Assembly: GCA_030950365.1 (NCBI GenBank)
Contig: JAUZRQ010000072.1
Coordinates: 1-64,000 of the forward strand
DNA: 64,000 nucleotides
Direction of reading: 5' to 3'
Origin: Candidatus Zhuqueibacterota bacterium
GTDB lineage: Bacteria; Zhuqueibacterota; Zhuqueibacteria; Zhuqueibacterales; Geothermadaptataceae
Notes under the pieces: model-generated
The model's database searches: none
Seen by the model: the letters and a program-made list of their open reading frames with translations, nothing else
What the model was told of the DNA's origin: nothing
Made by a program: the position numbers and the translations under genes
Part shown: one piece after another, positions 7,773 through 20,472 of the stretch
Layout of the letters: each line of letters opens with the position of its first letter
How positions within the stretch are numbered: position 1 is the first letter of the stretch

Positions 7773-8174
7773 ACCGTTTTGGAAACTACTGTAGCGCGCC
7801 TTTCCCGATTCGCGAACCTGCCGTAGCGCGACTCTCCAGAGTCGCGAAAAAACTGCACCGTTTCAAAATGAACGCTTCTTCCGCACAATCCGTAAGTTTC
7901 TGAGTCTTCCTGGCGGAGATTTAGAGACTCCCACCTCGCTGAACCGCTACAACACGGCTGACCAAACGAGCTCCCGGGACCTGACCTAGAATTTTCTTTC
8001 CTCCTAGCGCTGCAAGCAAAGCATAAACTTCATGCCTCAAAAGGCGCGATTTGCTGCCATTCGGATACCCTGTTTGCCACTTTTTCGCATGAAACTATCT
8101 CGCTGCGTCTTCGTACATTGGAAAAGTCATTCAGAATTTATGGGGCGATTCATGTTGATACGGAGAGCCAATCG
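7773..8174. other. Intergenic region with two short direct repeats
   Basis: Apart from the 28-nt repeat pair at 7789-7848 and the ribosome site of the next gene (GGAG at 8162-8165), nothing recognisable. An in-frame TTG at 8118 could extend the adaptor gene upstream but lacks a ribosome site and would bury the signal peptide. Confidence 0.4.
7789..7848. repeat. Tandem 28-nt imperfect direct repeat
   Basis: Two related units, 7789-7816 and 7821-7848, share the frame gtagcgcg-x-ct-x-tcc-x-ga-x-tcgcgaa. The second unit also contains the inverted repeat gcgactctccagagtcgc. It is an intergenic repeat of unknown role. Confidence 0.55.
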
Positions 8175-9299
8175 ATGAAGTCACAGAAATCATTTTGGTT
8201 GCTGTTGCCCCTGATGCTGGCGCTGCTGCCATGGGGATGTGCCGAACAGGATGCGCGCAGTGAAAATTCCAACTCGAAAAAAGCCGGGGCCAAAACCGCC
8301 GGGGCCGGGCAGGACACCACCCAAAACGCGGATGAAGAAAAAATCCCGGTGGAAGTGACCCGGCTGCACTTGGGCTCGATTTCGTCTTATCTGTTACTGA
8401 GTGCGAACCTGGAAACCGAGGAAATGGCCGATGTGTACTCGCGCATCCAGGGGTTGGTTGCCGCCATTCATGCCGAAGAAGGCGACTTAGTGAAAAAAGG
8501 CCAGCTTCTGATGGAGCTGGAAGCCGATGAATATGCGCTGGCCGAGGCCAAGGCGCGAGTCAATTTTCAGAAGCAGGAAAAAGCCTTCGAGCGCGCCAAA
8601 GCCATGTATGAGAAGGAACTATTGAGCATCGAAGAGTTCGAGCAGGCGAGGTTTGCCTACGATGCCGCGCGCATCGAATGGCAGCAGGCGCGTCTGAATT
8701 TGAATTACACCCGCATCACCGCCCCGATCTCCGGCGTCATTGGCGAGCGGCTGCGCCGACCCGGAGAACGCATCCAGCCCACCGACAAGCTGTTTACCGT
8801 CATCAACACCTCGGACATGATCGCCGTGATCCACGTACCGGAGAAGGCCATCCGGCAAATCCGCAAAGGGCAAAAGGCGTATTTGACCTCGGATCATCTG
8901 CGCGGGCAGCAATTCCCCGGCTGGGTCAAGCGCGTCAGCCCGGTGGTCGATCCGGCGAGCGGCACCTTCAAAGTCACCATCGGTGTAAAAAACCGCGACA
9001 GCCTGCTGCGGCCGGGCATGTTCGTCAATGTGCACATCATCATGGAGACGCACGACAACGCGCTATTGGTACCGAAGGTTGCCGTGGTGTATGAGAACGA
9101 AAAGATGTACGTATTCGCCGTGCGCGACAGCGTGGCGCATAAGATCGAGGTGAAGCCCGGCTTCCAGGACCACGAGAAAATCGAGGCGCTGGCTGATTTG
9201 AAGCCGGGCGAAAAAATCATCGTCGTTGGCCAGGCCGGTCTCAAAGACAAAACACCGGTGAGCATCGTGGCCGAGCGCGAGGTTCTGGCGCAGCATTGA
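8175..9299 (+). CDS. RND efflux periplasmic adaptor (membrane fusion protein), lipoprotein
   Basis: A 374-residue HlyD/AcrA-family adaptor that should link inner-membrane RND permeases to an outer-membrane channel. It begins with a hydrophobic leader ending LLPWGC, a plausible lipoprotein signal. A lipoyl half-motif (GLVAAIHAEEGDLVKKGQLL), an alpha-helical hairpin (EAKARVNFQKQEKAFERAKAMYEK to QQARLNLNYTRI, described by its ends) and the second half-motif ITAPISGVIGERL follow. The start at ATG 8175 is chosen for its GGAG ribosome site and correct leader. It is the first gene of an operon with two RND permeases; no TolC-like gene is present in the window. Confidence 0.9.
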   Translation: MKSQKSFWLLLPLMLALLPWGCAEQDARSENSNSKKAGAKTAGAGQDTTQNADEEKIPVEVTRLHLGSISSYLLLSANLETEEMADVYSRIQGLVAAIHAEEGDLVKKGQLLMELEADEYALAEAKARVNFQKQEKAFERAKAMYEKELLSIEEFEQARFAYDAARIEWQQARLNLNYTRITAPISGVIGERLRRPGERIQPTDKLFTVINTSDMIAVIHVPEKAIRQIRKGQKAYLTSDHLRGQQFPGWVKRVSPVVDPASGTFKVTIGVKNRDSLLRPGMFVNVHIIMETHDNALLVPKVAVVYENEKMYVFAVRDSVAHKIEVKPGFQDHEKIEALADLKPGEKIIVVGQAGLKDKTPVSIVAEREVLAQH

Positions 9300-9401
9300 A
9301 GCCCCCGTTTGCGACCATAGCCAATCATGCACAGCCAGATTGCCCCACCGGCTGCATGTTTCCAGCCGGAGACCTCAACCGCAAGCCAGCAAGGGAAAAC
9401 G

Positions 9402-12400
9402 ATGCCCCAGGAAAGCAAACAAAACGATATCCAAAATCAACCGCCCCGGGGCGGCAATCCTGCCGCTTCCGCCAGCTTTTTTCACTTCACCACCACACGA
9501 CCGGTGGCGATTTTGATGATCGTGCTGGGCGTGTCCGTCTTCGGCTGGATCTCGTATCAGCAGCTCGCCCTCAACCTCATGCCCGATATCACCTATCCCT
9601 CGTTGACGGTGCGCACCGAATATCCCGGCACCGCACCGGAAGAGGTGGAGACCACCATTTCCCGGCCCATCGAGCAGGTGCTCGGGGTGGTGGATAATCT
9701 GGTTAGCATCAGCTCCATTTCCAAAGCCGGGCAGTCCGATGTGAAGCTGGAGTTCACCTGGGACACGGACATGAACAAGGCCAGCGCCGATGTGCGCGAA
9801 ATGCTGGACCAGGTGTTCCTGCCGGATGATGCCAAACGGCCGCTGATTTTGCGCTACGATCCGACTCTGGATCCGATTCTGCGGATCGGGCTGTACGGAG
9901 ACGCGAGTCTGGTTTATCTGCGGTACCTCGCCGAAGAAGAGATTAAACGCACGTTGGAAACCCTCGATGGCGTGGCGGCGGTCAAAGTCAAAGGCGGACT
10001 GGAGGAGGAAATTCGTGTGGAGCTGGATGAGCAAAAGCTGGCGCTCATTGGCATCGATATCCAGCAGGTGCGCAACCGGCTGGCGCAGGAAAATGTGAAC
10101 CTCGCTGGCGGCAACTTGAAAGAGGGACAAACCGAGTATCTGGTGCGCACGCTCAACGAGTTCAAGACGGTGGAAGAGATCACCCAGGTGGTGATTGGGA
10201 ACTGGAACGGCCGCGAAATCAAGATCGGCGATGTGGCGGAGGTGCGGCGCACGCACAGGGATCGCGAGCTGATCACGCGCATAAACGGCCGGGAAAGCGT
10301 GGAAATCCAGATTTATAAGGAGGCGGATGCCAACGTGGTGGCGGTGGCCGAACGGGTGAAGCGCCGGCTTTTCGGCACGCCCGAGCAGCAGGCGTACGTG
10401 CGTCGGCTGCGGCAGAGTCAGAGCGACACCACAAAAACTGCTGGCGAAGGCCAGGCCACCAATGGCAACAGCCGCGAGGCGCCACCCGACCGCCGGATGA
10501 CCAATTTCGTCGCCTATCAGTTGCCAGAAGGCATTCACCTGGAGGTACTTTCGGATCAGTCGGTGTTCATCAAAAACGCCGTGGAGGAGGTGAAATCCAC
10601 GGCGAAAATCGGCGCCGTGCTGGCGATTCTGGTTCTGTTTGTGTTTCTGCGCAACCTGCGCTCCACTCTCATCGTCGGCATCTCGATTCCGGTGTCGATC
10701 ATCGCCACGTTTGCGGCCATGCGGCTGTTCGACGTGTCGCTGAACATCATGTCGCTAGGTGGTCTGGCGCTGGGCATTGGTATGCTGGTGGACAATTCTA
10801 TCGTGGTGCTGGAAAGCATCGCGCGCTGCCGCGAAGAGGGCGACGATCTCATCCGTGCGACCATTCGCGGCGTGAGCGAGGTGGGCAGCGCCGTATTCGC
10901 CTCGACCCTCACTACCGTGGCGGTGTTTTTCCCGATCGTGTTTGTGGAGGGCGTGGCCGGACAGATTTTCGGCGACCTGGCGCTGACCGTGGTGTTTTCG
11001 CTGCTGGCCTCGCTGGCCGTGGCGCTGTTTCTGATCCCGATGCTGTCCTCGCGGCAGACGAGCCAGTTCATCCGCGATGTGCGTTTCGAGGGAACCCTGC
11101 ACAATCATCTGCTGCAATTTGCCACCGAGCCACGCATTAATGCATTGCTGGGCGGCCGGTCCGGCGCGCCGTGGCTGAAGACCGTGGGACAGGGCGTTTC
11201 CCTGTTTTTGCTCACCCTGTTAGCGGCCATCTGGAAGATGCTGCAGGCGCTGGCCGGGATGGTGGTGGCCTTCCTGAAAATGCTGCTGCTGGTCGCCCTG
11301 CTGCCGGTGGTGCCGGTCGCCGTGCCATTGCGCAAATGGGCGCGTTTGCCGTTCGATTTCGCTGCCTGGATGCGCCGTTTTGCCATGAGCGAGCATCTGG
11401 GCCGCATCCGGTTCGTGCAGGCACTCTGGCCGGGCTTTCTGGTGATCCGTTCGGTCCCGGCCCTCCTGGACGACTTCGCTGCAGGTTTACAATGCTTCCA
11501 CGATTCACCGGTGTGGCGAAAAGTCTTCGCACTGGTAATGGTTCCCCTGCAGGCCCTGTTCATGACCGGCAAATTCTTGTTCTGGTTTTTGTTTGAGATG
11601 GCCTTTCGTCTGTGGCACGCGCTGGCGCTGCAGGTGACCATTGGCCTCAAGACGGGGCACCTCCTGGGCCGGTTGGTACTATCACCGCTGGCGCAGGCTC
11701 TGTTTCGTGGATTCAACGCAATCTATTCGCCCATCGAAACCGGCTATCCGAACGTGCTGCGCGCGGCCCTGCAGCACCGGCTGGTCATGCTCGGGGGCAT
11801 GGCCGTGCTATTTGCCTTTACCCTGATCGTGCTGGGACCGCGGCTCGGCAGCGAATTGATCCCGGAAGTGCATCAGGGCGAGTTCAACGTGGAGGTGGCG
11901 CTGCCGGTCGGCACACCGGTGGAAGAAACCGATGCGCGCATCCTGCCGATTCAAGCCTTTTTGACGCAACAGCCGGTGGTGGCCAAGGTGGCTTCCGTGG
12001 CGGGCGTGGACCGCATGGCTACCACCGAAAGCGAGGCAGGCGAGCACACGGCGCGCCTCACCGTGACCCTCAAACGGCAGGGCAACCTGATCCGCACCGA
12101 AGAGGAGCTGGTCCGCCAGGTCCGTTCCGAATTGCGTCACTATTCCGGCATGGAATGGAAAATCTCCCGGCCGGTGTTGTTCAGTTTCAAAACGCCGATC
12201 GAGGTGGAGATTCACGGCTACAATCTTCGGCAATTGCAAACCGTGGCGCGAACCGTGGAAGAACGGCTGCGGCGGATTCCGGGCGTGTTCGATGTCAAAT
12301 CCAGCATGCAGCGCGGCAATCCCGAGGTGCAGATCGTGTACGATCGGCCGCGGCTGGCCAGGTACGGCCTGAATATTCTCGAAGTGGCTTCGATCATCCG

Positions 12401-13274
12401 CAATAAAATCCGCGGGGATGTGGCCACCGAGTTCAAAGACCGCGATCGCAAAATCGATGTGCTGGTGCGGCTCAGAGAATCCGACCGGCAGAGCATCGAC
12501 GACCTGCGCCGGCTGGTGGTGAACCCCGGCTCGCCCATTCCGATCCCTCTCGAAGCCATCGCCGAAATTCGCGTCAATGAAGGCCCGGCGGAAATCCGCC
12601 GCGTGGATCAGCAGCGAACGGCGGTGATCACCGCCAGCATCTCTGGCCGCGATTTGCAGAGCGTGAGCGAGGACATCGAGGCCGTGCTGAGCCAGATCGA
12701 CATGCCAGAGGATTTTACTTATTCGCTTGCCGGTCAGAACAAGGAGATGCAGACCTCGCTGAACAGCCTGAAATTCGCTCTCGCGCTGGCGATTTTTCTG
12801 GTGTACATCGTCATGGCGTCACAATTCGAGTCGCTGATTTATCCTTTCGTCATCATTTTCACCATCCCGCTGGCGCTGATTGGGGTGATCTGGGTGCTGT
12901 ACGTGCTGAATATCCCGCTCAGCATCGTGGTGTTTCTGGGGCTGATCATGCTCGCCGGCATCGTGGTGAATAACGCCATTGTGCTGGTGGATTACATCAA
13001 CCAGTTGCGGGCGCGCGGCCTGCCCAAAGTGGAGGCTATCGTGAAGGCCGGCCGGGTGCGGTTGCGCCCGATTCTGATGACCACCGCGACGACCGTGCTG
13101 GGCCTGCTGCCCATGGCGCTCGGCCTCGGTGAGGGCGCGGAAATCCGCACGCCCATGGCCATTACGGTGATCGTCGGACTGGTCTCATCCACCTTTTTGA
13201 CCCTGGTCGTGATCCCGGCGGTGTACAGTCTGGTGGGTGGCCGGGAATCGCGAACGGAGGTGGAGCCCGCGTGA
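9402..13274 (+). CDS. RND efflux permease with unusual central membrane insert
   Basis: A 1290-residue proton-driven RND transporter of the AcrB/CzcA superfamily. The N-terminal TTRPVAILMIV helix, the TM4 segment GIGMLVDNSIVVLESI with the proton-relay aspartate, and the C-terminal GIVVNNAIVLVDYIN and PILMTTATTVLGLLPMA segments are all present. Family members are usually about 1020-1060 residues. The excess lies between TM6 (ending MLSSRQ) and the TM7 region (restarting at YPNVLRAALQHRLVML), roughly nt 11100-11735, and is rich in hydrophobic and Trp/Phe residues suggesting extra membrane helices. ATG 9402 has AAGGGA 5 nt upstream; an earlier ATG at 9327 lacks a site. Substrate unknown. The stop overlaps the GTG of the next gene. 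Confidence 0.88.
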   Translation: MPQESKQNDIQNQPPRGGNPAASASFFHFTTTRPVAILMIVLGVSVFGWISYQQLALNLMPDITYPSLTVRTEYPGTAPEEVETTISRPIEQVLGVVDNLVSISSISKAGQSDVKLEFTWDTDMNKASADVREMLDQVFLPDDAKRPLILRYDPTLDPILRIGLYGDASLVYLRYLAEEEIKRTLETLDGVAAVKVKGGLEEEIRVELDEQKLALIGIDIQQVRNRLAQENVNLAGGNLKEGQTEYLVRTLNEFKTVEEITQVVIGNWNGREIKIGDVAEVRRTHRDRELITRINGRESVEIQIYKEADANVVAVAERVKRRLFGTPEQQAYVRRLRQSQSDTTKTAGEGQATNGNSREAPPDRRMTNFVAYQLPEGIHLEVLSDQSVFIKNAVEEVKSTAKIGAVLAILVLFVFLRNLRSTLIVGISIPVSIIATFAAMRLFDVSLNIMSLGGLALGIGMLVDNSIVVLESIARCREEGDDLIRATIRGVSEVGSAVFASTLTTVAVFFPIVFVEGVAGQIFGDLALTVVFSLLASLAVALFLIPMLSSRQTSQFIRDVRFEGTLHNHLLQFATEPRINALLGGRSGAPWLKTVGQGVSLFLLTLLAAIWKMLQALAGMVVAFLKMLLLVALLPVVPVAVPLRKWARLPFDFAAWMRRFAMSEHLGRIRFVQALWPGFLVIRSVPALLDDFAAGLQCFHDSPVWRKVFALVMVPLQALFMTGKFLFWFLFEMAFRLWHALALQVTIGLKTGHLLGRLVLSPLAQALFRGFNAIYSPIETGYPNVLRAALQHRLVMLGGMAVLFAFTLIVLGPRLGSELIPEVHQGEFNVEVALPVGTPVEETDARILPIQAFLTQQPVVAKVASVAGVDRMATTESEAGEHTARLTVTLKRQGNLIRTEEELVRQVRSELRHYSGMEWKISRPVLFSFKTPIEVEIHGYNLRQLQTVARTVEERLRRIPGVFDVKSSMQRGNPEVQIVYDRPRLARYGLNILEVASIIRNKIRGDVATEFKDRDRKIDVLVRLRESDRQSIDDLRRLVVNPGSPIPIPLEAIAEIRVNEGPAEIRRVDQQRTAVITASISGRDLQSVSEDIEAVLSQIDMPEDFTYSLAGQNKEMQTSLNSLKFALALAIFLVYIVMASQFESLIYPFVIIFTIPLALIGVIWVLYVLNIPLSIVVFLGLIMLAGIVVNNAIVLVDYINQLRARGLPKVEAIVKAGRVRLRPILMTTATTVLGLLPMALGLGEGAEIRTPMAITVIVGLVSSTFLTLVVIPAVYSLVGGRESRTEVEPA

Positions 13275-16200
13275 AACGATTTGGGAAAACGCAGGATACG
13301 ATGAAACGCCGAAACCGACACATTTTGCCGTGGTTTGCGCTGAAGCGCCCCACGACCGTGGTGATGATGCTCATGGCCCTGCTGGTGGTGGGCTACATCG
13401 CATTCAGCAAGATTGCCGTGGAGCTGCTGCCAGCCGGCTTCACGCCGCCTTTTCTCGGCGTCTGGACGCCGTATCCCAATTCCACCCCTAAGGAGGTGGA
13501 AGAGCTGATCGCCCGGCCCATCGAGGAGAGCATTCGCACGGTATCCGGGGTGCGGCGCATCCGCACCAGCAGCAGCGCCGGCGGCTGCTGGACGTTCGTG
13601 CAATTCTCGCAGGGCACCGACATGGACCTGGCCTATGCGCAGTTGCGCGATCGCATGGAGCGCGTGCGCGCCGAATTGCCCGACGATGTTGAGCGCATCT
13701 ATCTGCGCAAGTGGAGTGAAGACGACGAGCCCATCCTGTGGCTCACCCTCACACAAACCCTGCCGAACGAGGATCCCTACATACTGGTGGAACAGCATGT
13801 GAAAAAGCCGCTGGAGCGCATCGATGGCGTGGCCAAAGTCGAAATCTGGGGCGCTGAAGAAAAGTCCATCCTGATTCACATCAACCAGGACCGGGTAAAA
13901 AGCTACAAAGTTAATCTGTACGAAGTGATCCAGCGGCTGCGCGGCGACAATTTTGCCATTTCCAGCGGCTATGTGAAGGAGGGCGGTCGCAAAATATATG
14001 TGCGCTCGCTGGGCAAATTCCAATCGCTGGATGATATCCGCAATCTGCCCATCCGCGGCGCCAACCTGCGCCTGAAAGACATCGCCGAAATCAAATATGA
14101 CGTGCCGGAACGGCGCTGGCGCATGAAAGTCGATGGCCATGACGCTATCAGCATCGGGATTTACAAGGAGTCCATGGCCAACACCGTGGAACTGTGCGAC
14201 CGCGTGCAGGCCATGCTGCGCGAGCGCATCGAGAAAGACCCCCGCCTGGCCATTTTTAAAATGAACGTGCTGTTCGATCAGGGGCAGTTTATCAAAGAAT
14301 CGATCGACAACCTCACCAACACGGCCTACTGGGGCGGCCTGTTTGCCTTTCTGGTGCTGTATTTTTTTCTGCGTCGGTTCCGCATGACGCTGATCGTCAC
14401 CATCGCCATTCCGCTGTCCGTGCTCATCACCCTCACGGTGATGTATTTCATCGGCTGGAGCCTGAATGTGGTGACCATGATGGGGCTGATGATCAGCATT
14501 GGCATGGTGGTGGACAATTCCATTGTCGTCATCGAAAACATCTATCGTCGCATGAGCGCTGGCGATGCGCCGCACAAAGCCGCGCTGGAGGGCACCAGCG
14601 AGGTGGCCCTGGCCATCACCCTGGCCACGCTCACCACGGTGGTGGTGTTCCTGCCGCTGATTCTGATGAATGACGAGATCGGCTTTCGGTTTTATATGCT
14701 GCGCATCGGCCTGCCAGTGATCCTTTCGCTGCTGGCCTCATTGCTGGTGGCCATGGTGTTTATCCCGCTGGCGGCCACGCGCATCAAAAGCCGGAAGCCG
14801 GTGCAGGAGCACCGAATCATCCGCAACAGCAACGCCCTGTACGGCCGCATGCTGAACTGGAGCCTGCACCACCGGACCGAAACGTTTGTGATTCTGCTGC
14901 TGGTGCTGGCCTCGATGATGTTTGCTTCGCAGCGCGTCAAGCACGCGGACAATACATCTGGCAATATCAACGACATCCGGCTGTTTTTTGAGATGCCGGA
15001 CCATTTCAGCCTCGATGAAGCCGAAAAGGTGCTGCTGGCTGTTGAGGACACCGTGCGCAGCAAGGCGGACCGCTATGGGCTGAAAACCATTAATCTGCGC
15101 TACAGCCATAACTGGGGGGAGATGCGCATTTTCCTGCATCCGCCGGAGAAGCGCGACTGGTATGAGACGCTTTTTGAGAATTTACGAAAGAAGTGGGCGC
15201 CGCCGCAAAACGCGCGCATGACGCGCAACGAGGTGGTCGAAGATCTGAAACAGCGGCTGCCGACGTTTCCGGGTGTGGAGATTCGCGTCGGCTGGGGCCA
15301 ATCCGGCAGCAGCGAAACCTCGGTGGCGATCCTGCTGTATGGCGATGATACCGGCACGCTGATTACCCTGGCCGAGGAGGTGGAACGCCGGCTGCGCAGC
15401 ATCCCGGAAATTTTGAGCGTCGAAACCGACCGCGACCGCGGCCAGGACGAGATTCATCTGATCATTCACCGGGAGCAGGCGCACAAATACGGTATTTCGC
15501 CGCGACTGATTTCCGGCACGGTACAGTATGCCCTGCGCGGCATTCCGCTGCCCCGGCTGCACACCTCCGAAAAGGAGATCGAAGTCCGGATTCAGTTGCG
15601 GGAGCAGGACCGTCGCAATTTGCTGCAATTGCAAAACATGACATTTTTCACCCGCAGCGGCAAGGAAATTCCGCTGAGTGCGGTGGCCAGCTTCAAAATC
15701 CAAAAAGGGCTGGGCCAGATCATCCGCCGCGACGGCAAGACCCATCTGCAGGTGAAGGCCTATACTACCACAGATGATCTCAAAAGGCTGTATGAGCGTA
15801 TTGACCGGGTGATGGCCGGTTTTACCATGCCGGTGGGCTATAGCTGGAGCAAGGGAGAGAGCTTCATGCGCATGCGCGAATCGGACGACAGTCAGAAGTT
15901 TGCGCTCATTCTATCGGCCACGTTTGTGTTCCTGCTCATGGGCGTGCTGTTTGAATCGTTTGTGCTGCCGCTGTCAGTGATCCTGTCGATCCCGTTCGCC
16001 TTTGTGGGCTCGTTCTGGCTCATGTACATCACCGGCACCCCTATCGACATCATGAGCCAGATCGGCTTTGTGATCCTGGTCGGCATCGTGGTCAACAACG
16101 CCATCGTGCTCATCGATTTCATCAACCGGTTGCGGCAGGATGGGCTTTCGCGTACAGAGGCCATCATGCAGGCCGGCCAGCACCGCTTCCGCCCGATATT

Positions 16201-16462
16201 GATGACCGCATTCACCACCATCGGTGGCCTCATCCCCATGGCGCTCGGCGGCGCGCAGATGATCGGCATTCCGTATTCGCCCATGGGGCGCACCATCATC
16301 GGCGGCCTGCTCACATCCACACTGCTGTCGCTCATCGCCGTGCCGTGGGCCTACACTCTGTTTGACGACATGCGCAACTACTTTAAAAAGCTCACGGCGC
16401 TGTATCTGACGCCATCGTCCGGTGAGCCCGCCGCAGAACTCCCCGAACCGGAACAGAGCTAA
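13271..16462 (+). CDS. RND efflux permease, second subunit
   Basis: A 1063-residue RND permease of normal length. Recognisable elements are LKRPTTVVMMLM at TM1, the TM4 motif ISIGMVVDNSIVVIENIYRR, and the second-half counterpart GIVVNNAIVLIDFINRL followed by FRPILMTAFTTIGGLIPMALGG. The GTG start overlaps the previous stop (GTGA, 13271-13274) and has a strong GGAGG just upstream, indicating translational coupling. Two different permeases sharing one adaptor suggests a heteromeric pump of the MdtBC type; that is inference. Paired with the ECF sigma and metal genes downstream, a metal or toxic-compound export role is possible but not shown. Confidence 0.88.
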   Translation: MKRFGKTQDTMKRRNRHILPWFALKRPTTVVMMLMALLVVGYIAFSKIAVELLPAGFTPPFLGVWTPYPNSTPKEVEELIARPIEESIRTVSGVRRIRTSSSAGGCWTFVQFSQGTDMDLAYAQLRDRMERVRAELPDDVERIYLRKWSEDDEPILWLTLTQTLPNEDPYILVEQHVKKPLERIDGVAKVEIWGAEEKSILIHINQDRVKSYKVNLYEVIQRLRGDNFAISSGYVKEGGRKIYVRSLGKFQSLDDIRNLPIRGANLRLKDIAEIKYDVPERRWRMKVDGHDAISIGIYKESMANTVELCDRVQAMLRERIEKDPRLAIFKMNVLFDQGQFIKESIDNLTNTAYWGGLFAFLVLYFFLRRFRMTLIVTIAIPLSVLITLTVMYFIGWSLNVVTMMGLMISIGMVVDNSIVVIENIYRRMSAGDAPHKAALEGTSEVALAITLATLTTVVVFLPLILMNDEIGFRFYMLRIGLPVILSLLASLLVAMVFIPLAATRIKSRKPVQEHRIIRNSNALYGRMLNWSLHHRTETFVILLLVLASMMFASQRVKHADNTSGNINDIRLFFEMPDHFSLDEAEKVLLAVEDTVRSKADRYGLKTINLRYSHNWGEMRIFLHPPEKRDWYETLFENLRKKWAPPQNARMTRNEVVEDLKQRLPTFPGVEIRVGWGQSGSSETSVAILLYGDDTGTLITLAEEVERRLRSIPEILSVETDRDRGQDEIHLIIHREQAHKYGISPRLISGTVQYALRGIPLPRLHTSEKEIEVRIQLREQDRRNLLQLQNMTFFTRSGKEIPLSAVASFKIQKGLGQIIRRDGKTHLQVKAYTTTDDLKRLYERIDRVMAGFTMPVGYSWSKGESFMRMRESDDSQKFALILSATFVFLLMGVLFESFVLPLSVILSIPFAFVGSFWLMYITGTPIDIMSQIGFVILVGIVVNNAIVLIDFINRLRQDGLSRTEAIMQAGQHRFRPILMTAFTTIGGLIPMALGGAQMIGIPYSPMGRTIIGGLLTSTLLSLIAVPWAYTLFDDMRNYFKKLTALYLTPSSGEPAAELPEPEQS

Positions 16463-16488
16463 AACGGCTTTTGAACACGACCCTGTCC

Positions 16489-16519
16489 CTGTCGCCGGGA
16501 TGGACAACCCCGGCGACAG
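16489..16519 (+). terminator. Hairpin ending the RND operon
   Basis: Perfect 11-bp arms ctgtcgccggg (16489-16499) and cccggcgacag (16509-16519). The following sequence becomes T-rich only after about 14 nt, so it is a strong hairpin but not a textbook intrinsic terminator. Confidence 0.45.
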
Positions 16520-16688
16520 CCTGATTCGTCCCTCTTTTGATTGAATCCCCGGAAACGATTGGTCGATTTCCGCACGATTGGCTTTATGCCGCTGTGGATT
16601 TGTGCCGCTGGTCAAAAAAAATCCACCAAAGCGGTTACTTTTTTTGTAATTTGTCGTTTGTATCATTGAACCCGCAGGAAAAGGAAGC

Positions 16689-17252
16689 ATGACCGATCGG
16701 AGCGATGAACAACTGATGCTGGATTATGCCAGCGGCGACGTGCAGGCATTCGAGGAGCTGTTCCGGCGCCACGGGCAAAAACTCTATAATCTGTTTTTGC
16801 GCTATTGCGGAGATCCACATTTGGCCGAGGACCTGTTGCAGGAGTGTTTCTTGCGCGTGATTGAAGCGAGAAACCGCTACCGGTCGGAAAACGCTTTTGG
16901 CCGCTGGTTGGTGACCATCGCCATGAATTTGCTGCGCGATCACCACCGCCGGATCAGCCGCAGGGGAGAGCGCGCGGGATCAGAAACCGAGCCGGAGGCG
17001 CTGCCGCATCACGGCGCGAATCCGCAACTGCATCTGGAACGGCAGCATCTGCACGAGGCCGTTCAAAAAGCGCTGCTTGCCCTGCCACCCGAGCAGCGGC
17101 AGGTGATTTTGCTGAGCAAATATTACGGTTTTTCCTTCGCGGAAATTGCCGCCATGCTGAACCTGTCGCCGGCGGCGGCCAAACAAAAGGCCTACCGCGG
17201 CATGATCACCCTGCGGGAAAAACTGGCTCATTTAAAGGAGCATGATACATGA
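16689..17252 (+). CDS. ECF-family RNA polymerase sigma factor
   Basis: A 187-residue sigma-70 group 4 factor. Region 2 covers residues about 10-85 (AFEELFRRHGQKLYNLFLRYCGDPHLAEDLLQECF by its ends, then FGRWLVTIAMNLLRDHHRR), region 4 about 115-180 (LPPEQRQVILLSKYYGFSFAEIAAMLNLS, a helix-turn-helix). Ribosome site AAGGAAG lies directly upstream. Its stop overlaps the start of a zinc-finger anti-sigma factor (ATGA at 17249-17252), the standard pairing for envelope or metal stress response. Likely targets, by position only, are the flanking RND and heavy-metal operons. Confidence 0.92.
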   Translation: MTDRSDEQLMLDYASGDVQAFEELFRRHGQKLYNLFLRYCGDPHLAEDLLQECFLRVIEARNRYRSENAFGRWLVTIAMNLLRDHHRRISRRGERAGSETEPEALPHHGANPQLHLERQHLHEAVQKALLALPPEQRQVILLSKYYGFSFAEIAAMLNLSPAAAKQKAYRGMITLREKLAHLKEHDT

Positions 17253-18130
17253 CGTGCACGGAGATTCAACAGCGGATGCTTGCGGCCATCCTGGAAGGCG
17301 CAGAGCCCGGGCACGACGCCGCCGTGAAGGCGCATCTGGCGGATTGTACTGCTTGCCGCAGCGCGCTGCGGGAAATGACGGCCGCATGGCAGGCGTTGGA
17401 AACTCTGCCCGAACATCCGGTGCCCGCGGGCACGAAACGGACCATTTTGCAGCGTGCGCGCGAAGCCGCGGCGCCGTCCGGGCGGGCGCTGCTGTCTGGC
17501 CTGCGTGCCTGGCTTTTGGACTGGCGCAATCCGGTGCTGCCCATTCTCATGGGCCTGCTGACGACCTCGGTGTTCGCGCTGGTGCTGGAGCTGCATATGG
17601 ATCTTTCGCTAATTCCCCCGTTGGGACTCACCCTGGCCGGCGCCATGTGGACCGGCCTGTTTGCGCTGGTGTTTTATCTGTTCTCCATGGGCATGCGCCT
17701 GCAAGAGCATTCGTGGCGGTTCCTGGCCCAGACATCGCTGGTGGCCATCGGCATCTTTTTCGTCATTACTGTTTTCAGTCCGCTGCCGCACTCAGTGCGG
17801 TTTTGTAGCAATTTCAATTTGACCCAGCCGCTCATGGAGCGGCTGTCCATTGGCGGCGCCTATTTTGTGTTTGGTGTGGTGTATGCGCTGGTGCCCATGG
17901 CCATTGGCGCGTTCGTGGCTGCCGGCCGGTATGCCGGGCATCCACTGCTGCGCGGCTCGCTGGCGGGCGGGGTGTTCATGCTGCTGCTGGCCCCGGCGAT
18001 TTTCCTGCAATGCGCGCCGTTTGCGCTGGGCGTGGTGCTGGGCTGGTTCGGCGGCGCCCTGCTCGGTTCGCTCATCGGCGGGGCGCTGGGCTACTGGATT
18101 CGGTTCCGTGCCCTGCGGCAAAGCGCGTGA
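17249..18130 (+). CDS. Membrane anti-sigma factor with zf-HC2 domain
   Basis: A 293-residue protein with an N-terminal cytoplasmic anti-sigma domain (H-x3-C-x2-C as HLADCTACRS, residues about 29-38), then a linker and about six hydrophobic segments from residue about 95 to the C-terminus. It should bind and hold the ECF sigma factor encoded immediately upstream, releasing it on a membrane or periplasmic signal. Start overlaps the sigma stop by ATGA, so the two are translated together. Most single-pass anti-sigma factors are shorter; the polytopic C-terminal part is a possible sensor whose signal is not evident. Confidence 0.85.
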   Translation: MTCTEIQQRMLAAILEGAEPGHDAAVKAHLADCTACRSALREMTAAWQALETLPEHPVPAGTKRTILQRAREAAAPSGRALLSGLRAWLLDWRNPVLPILMGLLTTSVFALVLELHMDLSLIPPLGLTLAGAMWTGLFALVFYLFSMGMRLQEHSWRFLAQTSLVAIGIFFVITVFSPLPHSVRFCSNFNLTQPLMERLSIGGAYFVFGVVYALVPMAIGAFVAAGRYAGHPLLRGSLAGGVFMLLLAPAIFLQCAPFALGVVLGWFGGALLGSLIGGALGYWIRFRALRQSA

Positions 18131-18365
18131 GGCCAGGGGGTTCGCGACATCGGAGTGGATTCGCACCCGGGCAGTGTGTTGGATCGACCTTATTTCATGC
18201 TATAGCCGCTTCTCCGCCATCCGGGGCCGGGTATTGCGATTGGCCGCATGAATCGAAACCCGATAATGTGGACCAATATTTTGGCATAAATCACAAAACC
18301 GACAATAAAGTTTCGTTTTTCTTTGTTATACCAGTGCCTCATAAAACTATAGAGGAGGTTCCATT

Positions 18366-18917
18366 ATGAAAACCCTAATCTTCTGCATCGCAGCCATACT
18401 CCTCGCTGGCATCGCCTCTCCGCTTGCGGCACAGCAAAAAGCCGATAGCACGCTATTGAAAGGCCCACAAATTATGGCCCGGGTGGATGGCCTGGCCTGC
18501 CCCTTCTGCGCCTATGGCCTGGAAAAGAAACTCAAAAAGCTGGATGGCATCCAAAAGATTGAAATTCGCGTGGATAAAGGCGAGGCCCTTCTCACCTTGA
18601 AAAAAGGCGCGGCGCTTCGCAAAAGCGTGATCAAGCGGGCCATTCAGGATGCCGGATTTACGCCTCGCGCCATTTTCGCTCTGACGACCACCGGCATCCA
18701 GTTGAAGGTACAGGGCCTCACCTGCGAGGGCTGTATGGATCGAGTTAAAGCCGCCATCAAAGATACGCCCTGCGCCGAGATCACGTCTGTGAATTTCAAA
18801 ACCAGAGAAGCGAACTTGATCTGCAATGGCGACCAATCGCAGCACCGCATGGTCATCGATCGCATTAAAGCGCTGGGTTTTGAAGTGAATGAAATCCCGA
18901 AAAAGAACAAACCATGA
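18366..18917 (+). CDS. Secreted protein with two heavy-metal-associated (HMA) domains
   Basis: A 183-residue protein with a cleavable signal peptide (about 1-22, ending SPLAAQQ) and two tandem HMA folds. The first has GLACPFCAYG (C45, C48), the second GLTCEGCMDR (C120, C123). Each Cys-x2-Cys should bind Hg(II), Cu(I) or a similar soft metal in the periplasm, as MerP does with a single domain. A strong AGGAGG precedes the ATG. It starts an operon with an outer-membrane protein, an NHL lipoprotein and a MerT-like transporter, which points to periplasmic capture and hand-off of a metal. Whether mercury or copper is carried cannot be decided from sequence. Confidence 0.85.
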   Translation: MKTLIFCIAAILLAGIASPLAAQQKADSTLLKGPQIMARVDGLACPFCAYGLEKKLKKLDGIQKIEIRVDKGEALLTLKKGAALRKSVIKRAIQDAGFTPRAIFALTTTGIQLKVQGLTCEGCMDRVKAAIKDTPCAEITSVNFKTREANLICNGDQSQHRMVIDRIKALGFEVNEIPKKNKP

Positions 18918-19807
18918 AACGCATCCATGCGGCGGTCGGGCTGGTTTTTCTGACCCTGCTGGCCGCCGAGGTCCTGGCGCAGGGCCCGCCGATTCATACC
19001 GATACGCCCATCATGCTCGGTTTGCAGGGACGGGGCGTGCGCACGTTTGTGAAATATGTCTATCTCGGCAAGGCCCCCAACCTCGGAGTTGAAGACGATG
19101 TCACTATGATTCCCCGCTTACGGGTGCGGATCACCCCCGTGGTCATCCCTTATAATCTGTTCAGCGACCGGTTTCAGCTTGGCGTGATCCTGCCGCTGAC
19201 GCGCATTCGCCGCACCGAAATTGCAAAACAACGCCTATCTTCCGGAATGGGCGATGTGCGGCTGTTTGTCAAATACCTGCTGCTGCAGTGGGATCGCCGC
19301 CAGGAAACGCTGCGCCTTGCCGCGAAGTCGACCGTGAAGCTGGCTGCCGGCGCAACCGATGCCGTGCCGGCCCTGGGCAGCGGCAGCACCGATGTTTTGC
19401 TCTCCGCCGTGGCCGGTTGGATCAAAAAGCGTGTGGGTCTTTATGCCGAGGGCATCTATCAATTCTCAGGGACATTTGGCCAACTTGCCTATGGCGATAA
19501 GAAATCCGTGAATTTGGCCCTGGGATATCGGTTGTTCCCGGCGGTTTACCGGCGGTATCCCTCGCCGCAGCTCAATGGCTTTCTGGAAATCAACGCGACT
19601 TTCACTCAGCGCTCCAGACTGAACGGAGCGGAGATTCATAATACCGGAGGGACCCTGGTGCTGATTTCGCCCGGATTGCAGTATGTCGGCGGGCGGCGCT
19701 GGCTCGTCGAGGCCTCATGGCAATGGCCAATGGTCCACCGTCCCAACGGCTTGCAGCCGGTGATGAGCTGGCAGTTTCTGCTGGGAACGCGCATTTTGTT
19801 GTTTTAG
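18914..19807 (+). CDS. Outer-membrane beta-barrel protein of the heavy-metal operon
   Basis: A 297-residue protein with a signal peptide (about 1-22, ending AAEVLAQ) and a body of alternating hydrophobic/polar strands, for example FQLGVILPLTRIRR, LRLAAKSTVKLAAGA and VNLALGYRLFPAV, ending in strand-like WQFLLGTRILLF with a terminal phenylalanine typical of barrel proteins. It resembles the transporter/MetA-like barrel proteins that accompany metal and aromatic operons. Its start overlaps the HMA gene stop (ATGA), so it is translationally coupled to it. A role in outer-membrane passage of the same metal is inference from position. Confidence 0.65.
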   Translation: MKRIHAAVGLVFLTLLAAEVLAQGPPIHTDTPIMLGLQGRGVRTFVKYVYLGKAPNLGVEDDVTMIPRLRVRITPVVIPYNLFSDRFQLGVILPLTRIRRTEIAKQRLSSGMGDVRLFVKYLLLQWDRRQETLRLAAKSTVKLAAGATDAVPALGSGSTDVLLSAVAGWIKKRVGLYAEGIYQFSGTFGQLAYGDKKSVNLALGYRLFPAVYRRYPSPQLNGFLEINATFTQRSRLNGAEIHNTGGTLVLISPGLQYVGGRRWLVEASWQWPMVHRPNGLQPVMSWQFLLGTRILLF

Positions 19808-19825
19808 CAGTAGGACGATTCGACC

Positions 19826-20194
19826 ATGCTCAAACGATCTAACATACGCCTGTTGCCTGTGATTGTGCTATGGTCATTGGCAGCCTGCACGGCATCAAGC
19901 CCATTGGAGCCGGAGTTTGTACGAGAATGGGGCGGCACCGGCAACCAATTCGGGCAATTCCATGAACCGATTGGCATCGCCGTCGCTCCGGATGGCGCCG
20001 TTTATGTCGCCGATGCTGGCAATCATCGCATCCAGAAATTCACGGCCGCAGGGGAGTTTCTATTCGCATGGGGCGACGCCGGTTCCGAACCGGGCCAATT
20101 CGAGCACCCCATGCATCTGGCGGTTGACGCCCGCGGCCGGGTGTTGGTGCCGAATTATGGTAACGATCGCATTCAACAGTTTCGGGTCAAATGA
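19826..20194 (+). CDS. Short NHL-repeat lipoprotein
   Basis: A 122-residue lipoprotein: leader ending WSLAAC gives a good lipobox with Cys at residue 22. The rest is NHL-type beta-propeller sequence with about two blades (EPIGIAVAPDGAVYVADAGNHRIQKF and HPMHLAVDARGRVLVPNYGNDRIQQF, described by their ends). Full NHL propellers have about six blades, so this is either a fragment-like stand-alone module or one that multimerises. It lies between the barrel protein and the MerT-like gene, whose ATG overlaps its TGA (20191-20196), implying coupled translation. Its role is unknown. Confidence 0.75.
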   Translation: MLKRSNIRLLPVIVLWSLAACTASSPLEPEFVREWGGTGNQFGQFHEPIGIAVAPDGAVYVADAGNHRIQKFTAAGEFLFAWGDAGSEPGQFEHPMHLAVDARGRVLVPNYGNDRIQQFRVK

Positions 20195-20472
20195 TGAATG
20201 AGCGAATTCTAAATTTTGTTGCCATTGTGCTGGCGTTTTTGAGTCGCCCCTGCTGAGTGCTACCGCTGGTGTTCAGCTTCCTCGGGTTAGGAAGCGCGTC
20301 GGCCGTGGCCGTTCTGCAGCAGTACCGGACAGCCTTCGGCCTGCTGGCCATCGCATTGCTGGGGGTATCGTTTTATCTGACCTTCATTCGTGTGCGCAGC
20401 CACTGGATCAATCGTCTGCTGTGGGGAATCAGTGTGATCATCACAGCCGGCATTTTGTGGTACCTGCACTGA
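20194..20472 (+). CDS. merT: MerT-like metal transporter, predicted selenoprotein (in-frame TGA = Sec)
   Basis: Reading one frame from ATG 20194 to TGA 20470-20472 gives 92 residues interrupted by a single TGA at 20254-20256. Around it the protein reads SRPC-(TGA)-VLPLVFSFLGLG, then VLQQYRTAFGLLAIALLG and two more hydrophobic segments. This matches MerT, an inner-membrane mercury uptake protein whose first helix carries a vicinal Cys-Cys followed two residues later by Pro, then L-G and a Y-R in the loop. The TGA sits exactly at the second Cys, so the expected product has Cys20-Sec21. A hairpin with SECIS features begins 19 nt after the TGA (20276-20295). Its start overlaps the NHL gene. A start at GTG 20257 would remove the metal site and first helix. 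The alternative is a nonsense mutation. Confidence 0.75.
20276..20295 (+). promoter_or_regulatory. Candidate bacterial SECIS element
   Basis: Perfect 7-bp stem gcttcct (20276-20282) / aggaagc (20289-20295) with the six-base loop cgggtt. The loop starts 26 nt after the TGA and has G at its second position. Bacterial SECIS elements lie inside the coding region just after the UGA, with a G in the first two loop positions and the loop roughly 16-37 nt from the UGA. Short flanking ccg/cgg (20263-20265, 20300-20302) could extend the lower stem. Confidence 0.7.

Follow-up and report, generated by a model that had tools for sequence, protein, structure and literature searches.

Does the TGA that interrupts a short MerT-like gene encode selenocysteine (Sec) and, if it does, what might a Cys-Sec pair do at a site where ordinary MerT carries two cysteines? 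This question arises from a 64,000-nucleotide stretch of Candidatus Zhuqueibacterota DNA (hereafter the window), for which a sequence-only reading described one continuous MerT-like frame on the + strand (20194-20472) broken only by a TGA at 20254-20256. Translation at these positions confirmed the claim. The frame spans 92 residues, with MNERILNFVAIVLAFLSRPC preceding the TGA and VLPLVFSFLGLGSASAVAVLQQYRTAFGLLAIALLGVSFYLTFIRVRSHWINRLLWGISVIITAGILWYLH running from it to the stop, and the TGA, at codon 21, is its sole interruption. The residue immediately N-terminal to the TGA is a cysteine, giving a presumptive Cys20-Sec21 pair that is suggested by the frame, by relatives and by codon comparison. 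As that reading had also stated, the rest of the frame is intact to 20472 and the product is hydrophobic. Its further statement that TGA is not generally reassigned agrees with our count: TGA serves as an ordinary stop in the region, ending 21 of 37 long non-overlapping ORFs in the window, and the terminal stop of the MerT-like gene itself (20470-20472) is also TGA.

The ATG of the gene overlaps the stop of an upstream NHL gene (TGATGA). Hydropathy and the helix pattern of the product are consistent with three transmembrane helices, and an AlphaFold model built with two sequences is of low confidence (pLDDT 58, pTM 0.33).

Downstream of the TGA lies a hairpin that had been proposed to fit the rules for a bacterial selenocysteine insertion element (SECIS), and each part of its description held. 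At 20276-20295 on the + strand, the arms GCTTCCT (20276-20282) and AGGAAGC (20289-20295) form a perfect stem of seven Watson-Crick pairs around the loop CGGGTT (20283-20288). The stem begins 19 nt and the loop 26 nt past the TGA, the loop carries G at positions 2-4 (position 2 being the one originally pointed out) and the hairpin core has an energy of -10.2 kcal/mol. The published bSECIS model specifies a loop of 3-9 nt, a stem of 4-16 bp, a G within the first two loop positions, a spacing of 16-37 nt and an energy of at most -7.5 kcal/mol (PMC13188914), and the hairpin falls within all of these limits. Of the 2,055 TGA triplets that the window contains, only 0.7% are followed by a hairpin that has seven or more Watson-Crick pairs and obeys these limits on spacing, loop and G. 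Many shuffled sequences fold as well as the full 60-nt stretch (z -1.6), and the signal is the small hairpin together with its conservation, not overall stability.

A family search of 82 genomes of the phylum identified five copies of the protein, found in the window and in the genomes G001, G003, G013 and G031. TGA occupies the same codon in a congener (G001, 73% identity), in a member of the same family (G003, 54%) and in a member of a different family of the order (G013, 44%), and in these copies TAA or TAG never takes its place. A peptide, AFLSRPC-U-[VM]LPLVFS, spans the TGA in the Sec copies; since FAFLSRPC is conserved before the TGA in these copies, the two sides are parts of one protein. 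None of the five copies departs from CTC GGG TTA GGA at codons 30-33, which cover the loop and the positions flanking it, while synonymous sites nearby do vary. When the window is compared with G013, G003 and G001, pairs that are not independent of one another, the hairpin region holds an excess of unchanged codons, with a Fisher p of 0.003 to 0.02. The G013 stem also contains a compensatory replacement of U-A by C-G in which both sides have changed, though as one pair change in one sequence, of a kind that shuffles often match (197 of 500), this covariation is not significant alone. No relatives of the protein were found among viral contigs and phage records, and a single scan of genome contigs returned the same-genus copy only. 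Judged from these alignments, the conservation lies well past chance.

Two of the copies have irregularities. The G013 copy contains an in-frame TAA at codon 66, and the G031 copy (L039:1271-1549) has no in-frame TGA and no Cys pair. At protein level the G031 sequence (L019) looks like a homologue that lacks Cys and Sec alike, and such a homologue would speak against selenocysteine. We rejected this reading: the DNA contains TGCTGA at the homologous place, out of frame between a +1 indel upstream and a compensating -1 indel just after. Because of this arrangement and of a hairpin stem that is broken (-3.2 kcal/mol), we read the G031 copy as derived or damaged, and it is possibly a snapshot of selenocysteine loss or else an assembly error. 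Either assembly errors or decay could explain the G013 TAA and the G031 indels. In neither copy has Sec been swapped for an unrelated residue with the SECIS left intact.

These irregularities are also what one would cite for the view that the gene is a degenerating MerT pseudogene whose TGA reflects a nonsense mutation or a sequencing error, with a hairpin that is coincidental. The assembly is a metagenomic one, and the extra TAA in G013 and the two indels in G031 do give some of the copies a decayed look. Decay would not, however, leave four species with identities of 44-73% sharing a TGA at one and the same codon, nor would it conserve the protein on both sides of that codon and hold the loop codons frozen, and we therefore consider a pseudogene very improbable. 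The TGA would likewise lose its meaning if translation began just after it, at the GTG of position 20257, to yield a 71-residue protein without the metal pair and to leave the upstream piece as a separate short ORF. A gene caller would list just such an ORF (20257-20472), but the codon at 20257 is not conserved (GTG, GTG, GTA and ATG across the four copies with TGA), whereas the ATG at 20194 and the 20 residues ahead of the TGA are; the truncated protein would, moreover, lose half of its first transmembrane helix. Such a start is extremely unlikely.

Decoding of the TGA as selenocysteine finds further support in the host assembly (4.98 Mb, 95% complete), in which the search for sel genes suggested by the sequence-only reading turned up tRNA-Sec, selB and selD but not selA. 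The lack of selB or tRNA-Sec had been named as evidence that would tell against selenocysteine, and both are present. The tRNA-Sec (L036:16829-16925; G000:C6:84828-84922) has the anticodon TCA and scores 68.8 bits, and selB, on the same contig, scores 324 bits and includes the SelB wing domains. The selD gene (L054, G000:C136:893-1816; 380 bits) has an in-frame TGA of its own, within SCAG-U-ASKIG, followed by a small hairpin (GGTC-CGGGA-GACC) whose loop start is the same as that of the SECIS in the MerT-like gene; host selD is thus itself a predicted selenoprotein. Across the phylum, tRNA-Sec is present in all five genomes that carry the MerT-like gene (the host and four relatives), in contrast to a report that selC is absent from KSB1 genomes (PMC9012183), and selB is present in four of the five. 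The family search that missed selA in the host recovered it from 62 of 81 genomes of the phylum, among them G001, G003 and G013, three of the four relatives that carry the MerT-like gene. Given this distribution and the 95% completeness of the host assembly, an assembly gap is the simplest reading of the missing selA.

The host also contains a near-identical, end-truncated copy of tRNA-Sec (L002:1501-1578; G000:C111:3022-3099), for which ARAGORN makes no call. This copy is possibly the scar of an element that integrated at the tRNA gene.

The machinery, the TGA shared with three related species, the loop codons, the one compensatory change and the profile alignment described below all support the selenocysteine reading, and they indicate that UGA at codon 21 very probably inserts selenocysteine in the MerT-like protein.

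The MerT label, which the sequence-only reading had attached to the frame, stands as a statement of homology and is weaker as a family assignment, with a Pfam MerT (PF02411) score of 18.8 bits (E=0.0017) that falls below the gathering score of 32.9 and with the second Cys pair missing. A profile alignment to five canonical KSB1 MerTs (hhalign probability 98.9, E=4e-17) matches the TGA to the second cysteine of their vicinal pair, bearing out the original placement, and the pair in the first transmembrane helix is accordingly present as Cys-Sec. This alignment covers the whole length, with CC opposite Cys-Sec and with P24, L25, Y44, L56 and F60 common to both proteins, whereas the second, cytoplasmic pair (C71 and C77 in canonical numbering) is absent from the Sec protein. 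The loop after the first pair in the KSB1 Sec form has no Cys, and a His is conserved in the Sec copies. Canonical MerT occurs in 21 phylum genomes, and TGA is found in none of these genes. At this position, TGA is present in G001, G003 and G013 and Cys in canonical and short MerT. The host itself keeps a canonical Cys-Cys MerT (G000:C58:9280-9609), whose neighbours on contig C58 are an HMA protein and a flavin oxidoreductase.

Among known MerT types, the closest in form is the Bacillus RC607 type (NF033560, merT_RC607), which resembles the window protein in length (about 92-100 aa), in its full-length profile match and in its vicinal first-helix pair. The match scores 35.6 bits (E=9e-9) and runs nearly end to end, although it does not reach the curated cut-off of 130; the G003 copy matches the same model with E=9e-14. 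A short MerT on a Paenibacillus urinalis plasmid (merR-merT-merP-merA) likewise has no complete second Cys pair, with one Cys in the loop, but it carries CC at the site and belongs to a mer operon with merA and merR, whereas the window protein has Cys-Sec and no mer operon. We therefore regard the gene, on sequence grounds, as likely to encode a short RC607-type MerT-like selenoprotein of the inner membrane, with a Cys20-Sec21 pair decoded through SelB and the SECIS, and as a candidate soft-metal protein.

The idea of a Sec-containing MerT is already known, having been predicted since 2007, and what is new here is the single short-domain form in another gene setting. Zhang and Gladyshev (2007) are said to have been the first to report a predicted protein of this kind. 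A GOS survey includes a two-sequence Sec-MerT entry (PMC2398784), and a putative mercuric transport selenoprotein has been listed with the domain PF02411, the motif C/SxxU and the example ABB16073.1 (PMC9312934, PMC13188914). The listed protein likewise belongs to the MerT family and has a predicted Sec, but in a comparison by published motif only, its C/SxxU differs from the RPCU of the window protein, where Arg stands three before Sec. The MerT/CopZ selenoprotein model NF045683 also shares a MerT domain and Sec with the window protein and matches it weakly over the first helices. This model has 235 positions and includes a CopZ part, whereas the window protein consists of one 92-aa domain that matches the MerT part only, and no KSB1 genome passes the curated cut-off in a phylum-wide search. 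We set the two apart because of the score (14.8 bits against a cut-off of 375), the single short domain and the different gene setting.

Upstream of the MerT-like gene on the + strand are genes for a membrane-fusion protein of the HlyD/CusB type (8118-9299), two RND efflux transporters (ACR_tran; 13271-16462 and a second at 9327-13274), an ECF sigma factor (16689-17252), a putative zf-HC2 anti-sigma factor (17249-18130), a two-domain HMA protein with CPFC and CEGC metal sites that is a MerP-like candidate metal donor (18366-18917), an outer-membrane protein of the Phenol_MetA_deg family that also occurs in the G013 cluster (18914-19807) and, directly upstream, an NHL-repeat lipoprotein-like protein (19826-20194). 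The HMA protein is a mer-like neighbour, while neither merA nor merR lies near the gene and none of the genes identified between 8118 and 21505 encodes a flavin reductase. The pairing with an NHL gene recurs in G001, G013 and G031, and the G013 cluster combines outer-membrane, HMA and NHL genes with a P-type ATPase bearing an HMA domain and a MerC protein. In G003 the gene stands apart from HMA, NHL and outer-membrane partners, and in G031 a thioredoxin-like gene lies next to it.

The NHL protein of the window has 122 aa and two repeats, compared with 309-351 aa and more repeats in G013, G031 and G001, and it looks internally shortened.

We propose that SelB and Sec-tRNA would decode the codon-21 UGA under the control of the downstream hairpin and that the product would present a vicinal Cys20-Sec21 pair in its first transmembrane helix, at the place of the Cys-Cys of ordinary MerT. 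MerP hands Hg(II) to Cys24-Cys25 in the first helix of MerT, from which the ion moves to the cytoplasmic pair, and the first pair is needed for Hg(II) transport (PMC5715351). By analogy, Cys20-Sec21 would accept a soft metal ion handed over by an HMA protein of the periplasm, and the two-domain HMA protein of the window is a plausible donor. As the second Cys pair is missing, the ion would then be passed to another acceptor, or the protein might instead act as a sensor or relay in a metal-stress regulon that includes the ECF sigma factor and RND pumps or a P-type ATPase. The ORF, TGA position, SECIS, conservation, machinery, homology and context come from the sequence; we infer Sec incorporation itself, the metal, the direction of transfer and the donor. 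On the MerT analogy, a role in soft-metal transfer is reasonably probable. Hg(II) is the most likely candidate ion, with Cu(I) or Ag(I) possible, and naming mercury is a guess because the locus lacks merA, merR and a second Cys pair. Tighter binding of Hg(II) by Cys-Sec would be expected on chemical grounds.

A selenoprotein with this pair could alternatively use it as a redox centre, either a selenenylsulfide switch or a thiol reductase. Redox enzymes make up most selenoproteins (PMC9312934), and the thioredoxin-like neighbour in G031 and the missing second metal-binding Cys pair are compatible with such a role. The vicinal CC of the MerT family is, however, a characterised Hg(II) site (PMC5715351), and the neighbours in the window and in G013 are HMA proteins, a P-type ATPase with HMA, MerC and RND pumps, making a redox centre unlikely. 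If metal transfer is retained as the preferred role, the pair might nonetheless handle copper or silver in place of mercury, as an accessory of a Cus-like RND or CopA-like export system. This would suit the contiguous + strand run from 8118 to 20472 with its CusB/HlyD-type fusion protein and two RND pumps, the P-type ATPase with HMA in G013 and the canonical Hg cluster (merT, HMA and flavin oxidoreductase) that the same genome keeps separately at C58. Against it, the closest sequence relatives are MerT proteins of mercury operons, the G013 cluster includes MerC and the RND genes form at most a putative single operon with the MerT-like gene. We thus view copper or silver as a possible but rather doubtful substrate.

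More tentatively, a KSB1 lineage of short MerT may have independently switched from Cys-Cys to Cys-Sec, dropped the second pair and left the mer operon for a metal-stress cluster linked to an ECF sigma factor, in which its partners would be HMA, NHL-propeller and outer-membrane proteins. The result would be a soft-metal relay that is based on selenium and differs from the MerT/CopZ fusion selenoproteins.

In almost all selenoproteins that are understood, Sec serves redox catalysis. A conserved Cys-Sec pair that replaces a characterised metal-transfer Cys-Cys in a membrane protein would offer a clean natural test of selenium as an evolved metal ligand. The gene would also add, in an uncultured phylum, a selenoprotein that gene callers miss by calling a 71-aa fragment instead.

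A separate protein of the phylum, a fusion of HMA and rhodanese-like domains, reads GMT-TGA-HSC, which would put Sec where the HMA metal site has its first Cys (L109:639-1340; G064:C136). The same arrangement is found in L110 (G065:C115:3381-3662) and is thus conserved in two species, making this protein a candidate second metal-site selenoprotein.
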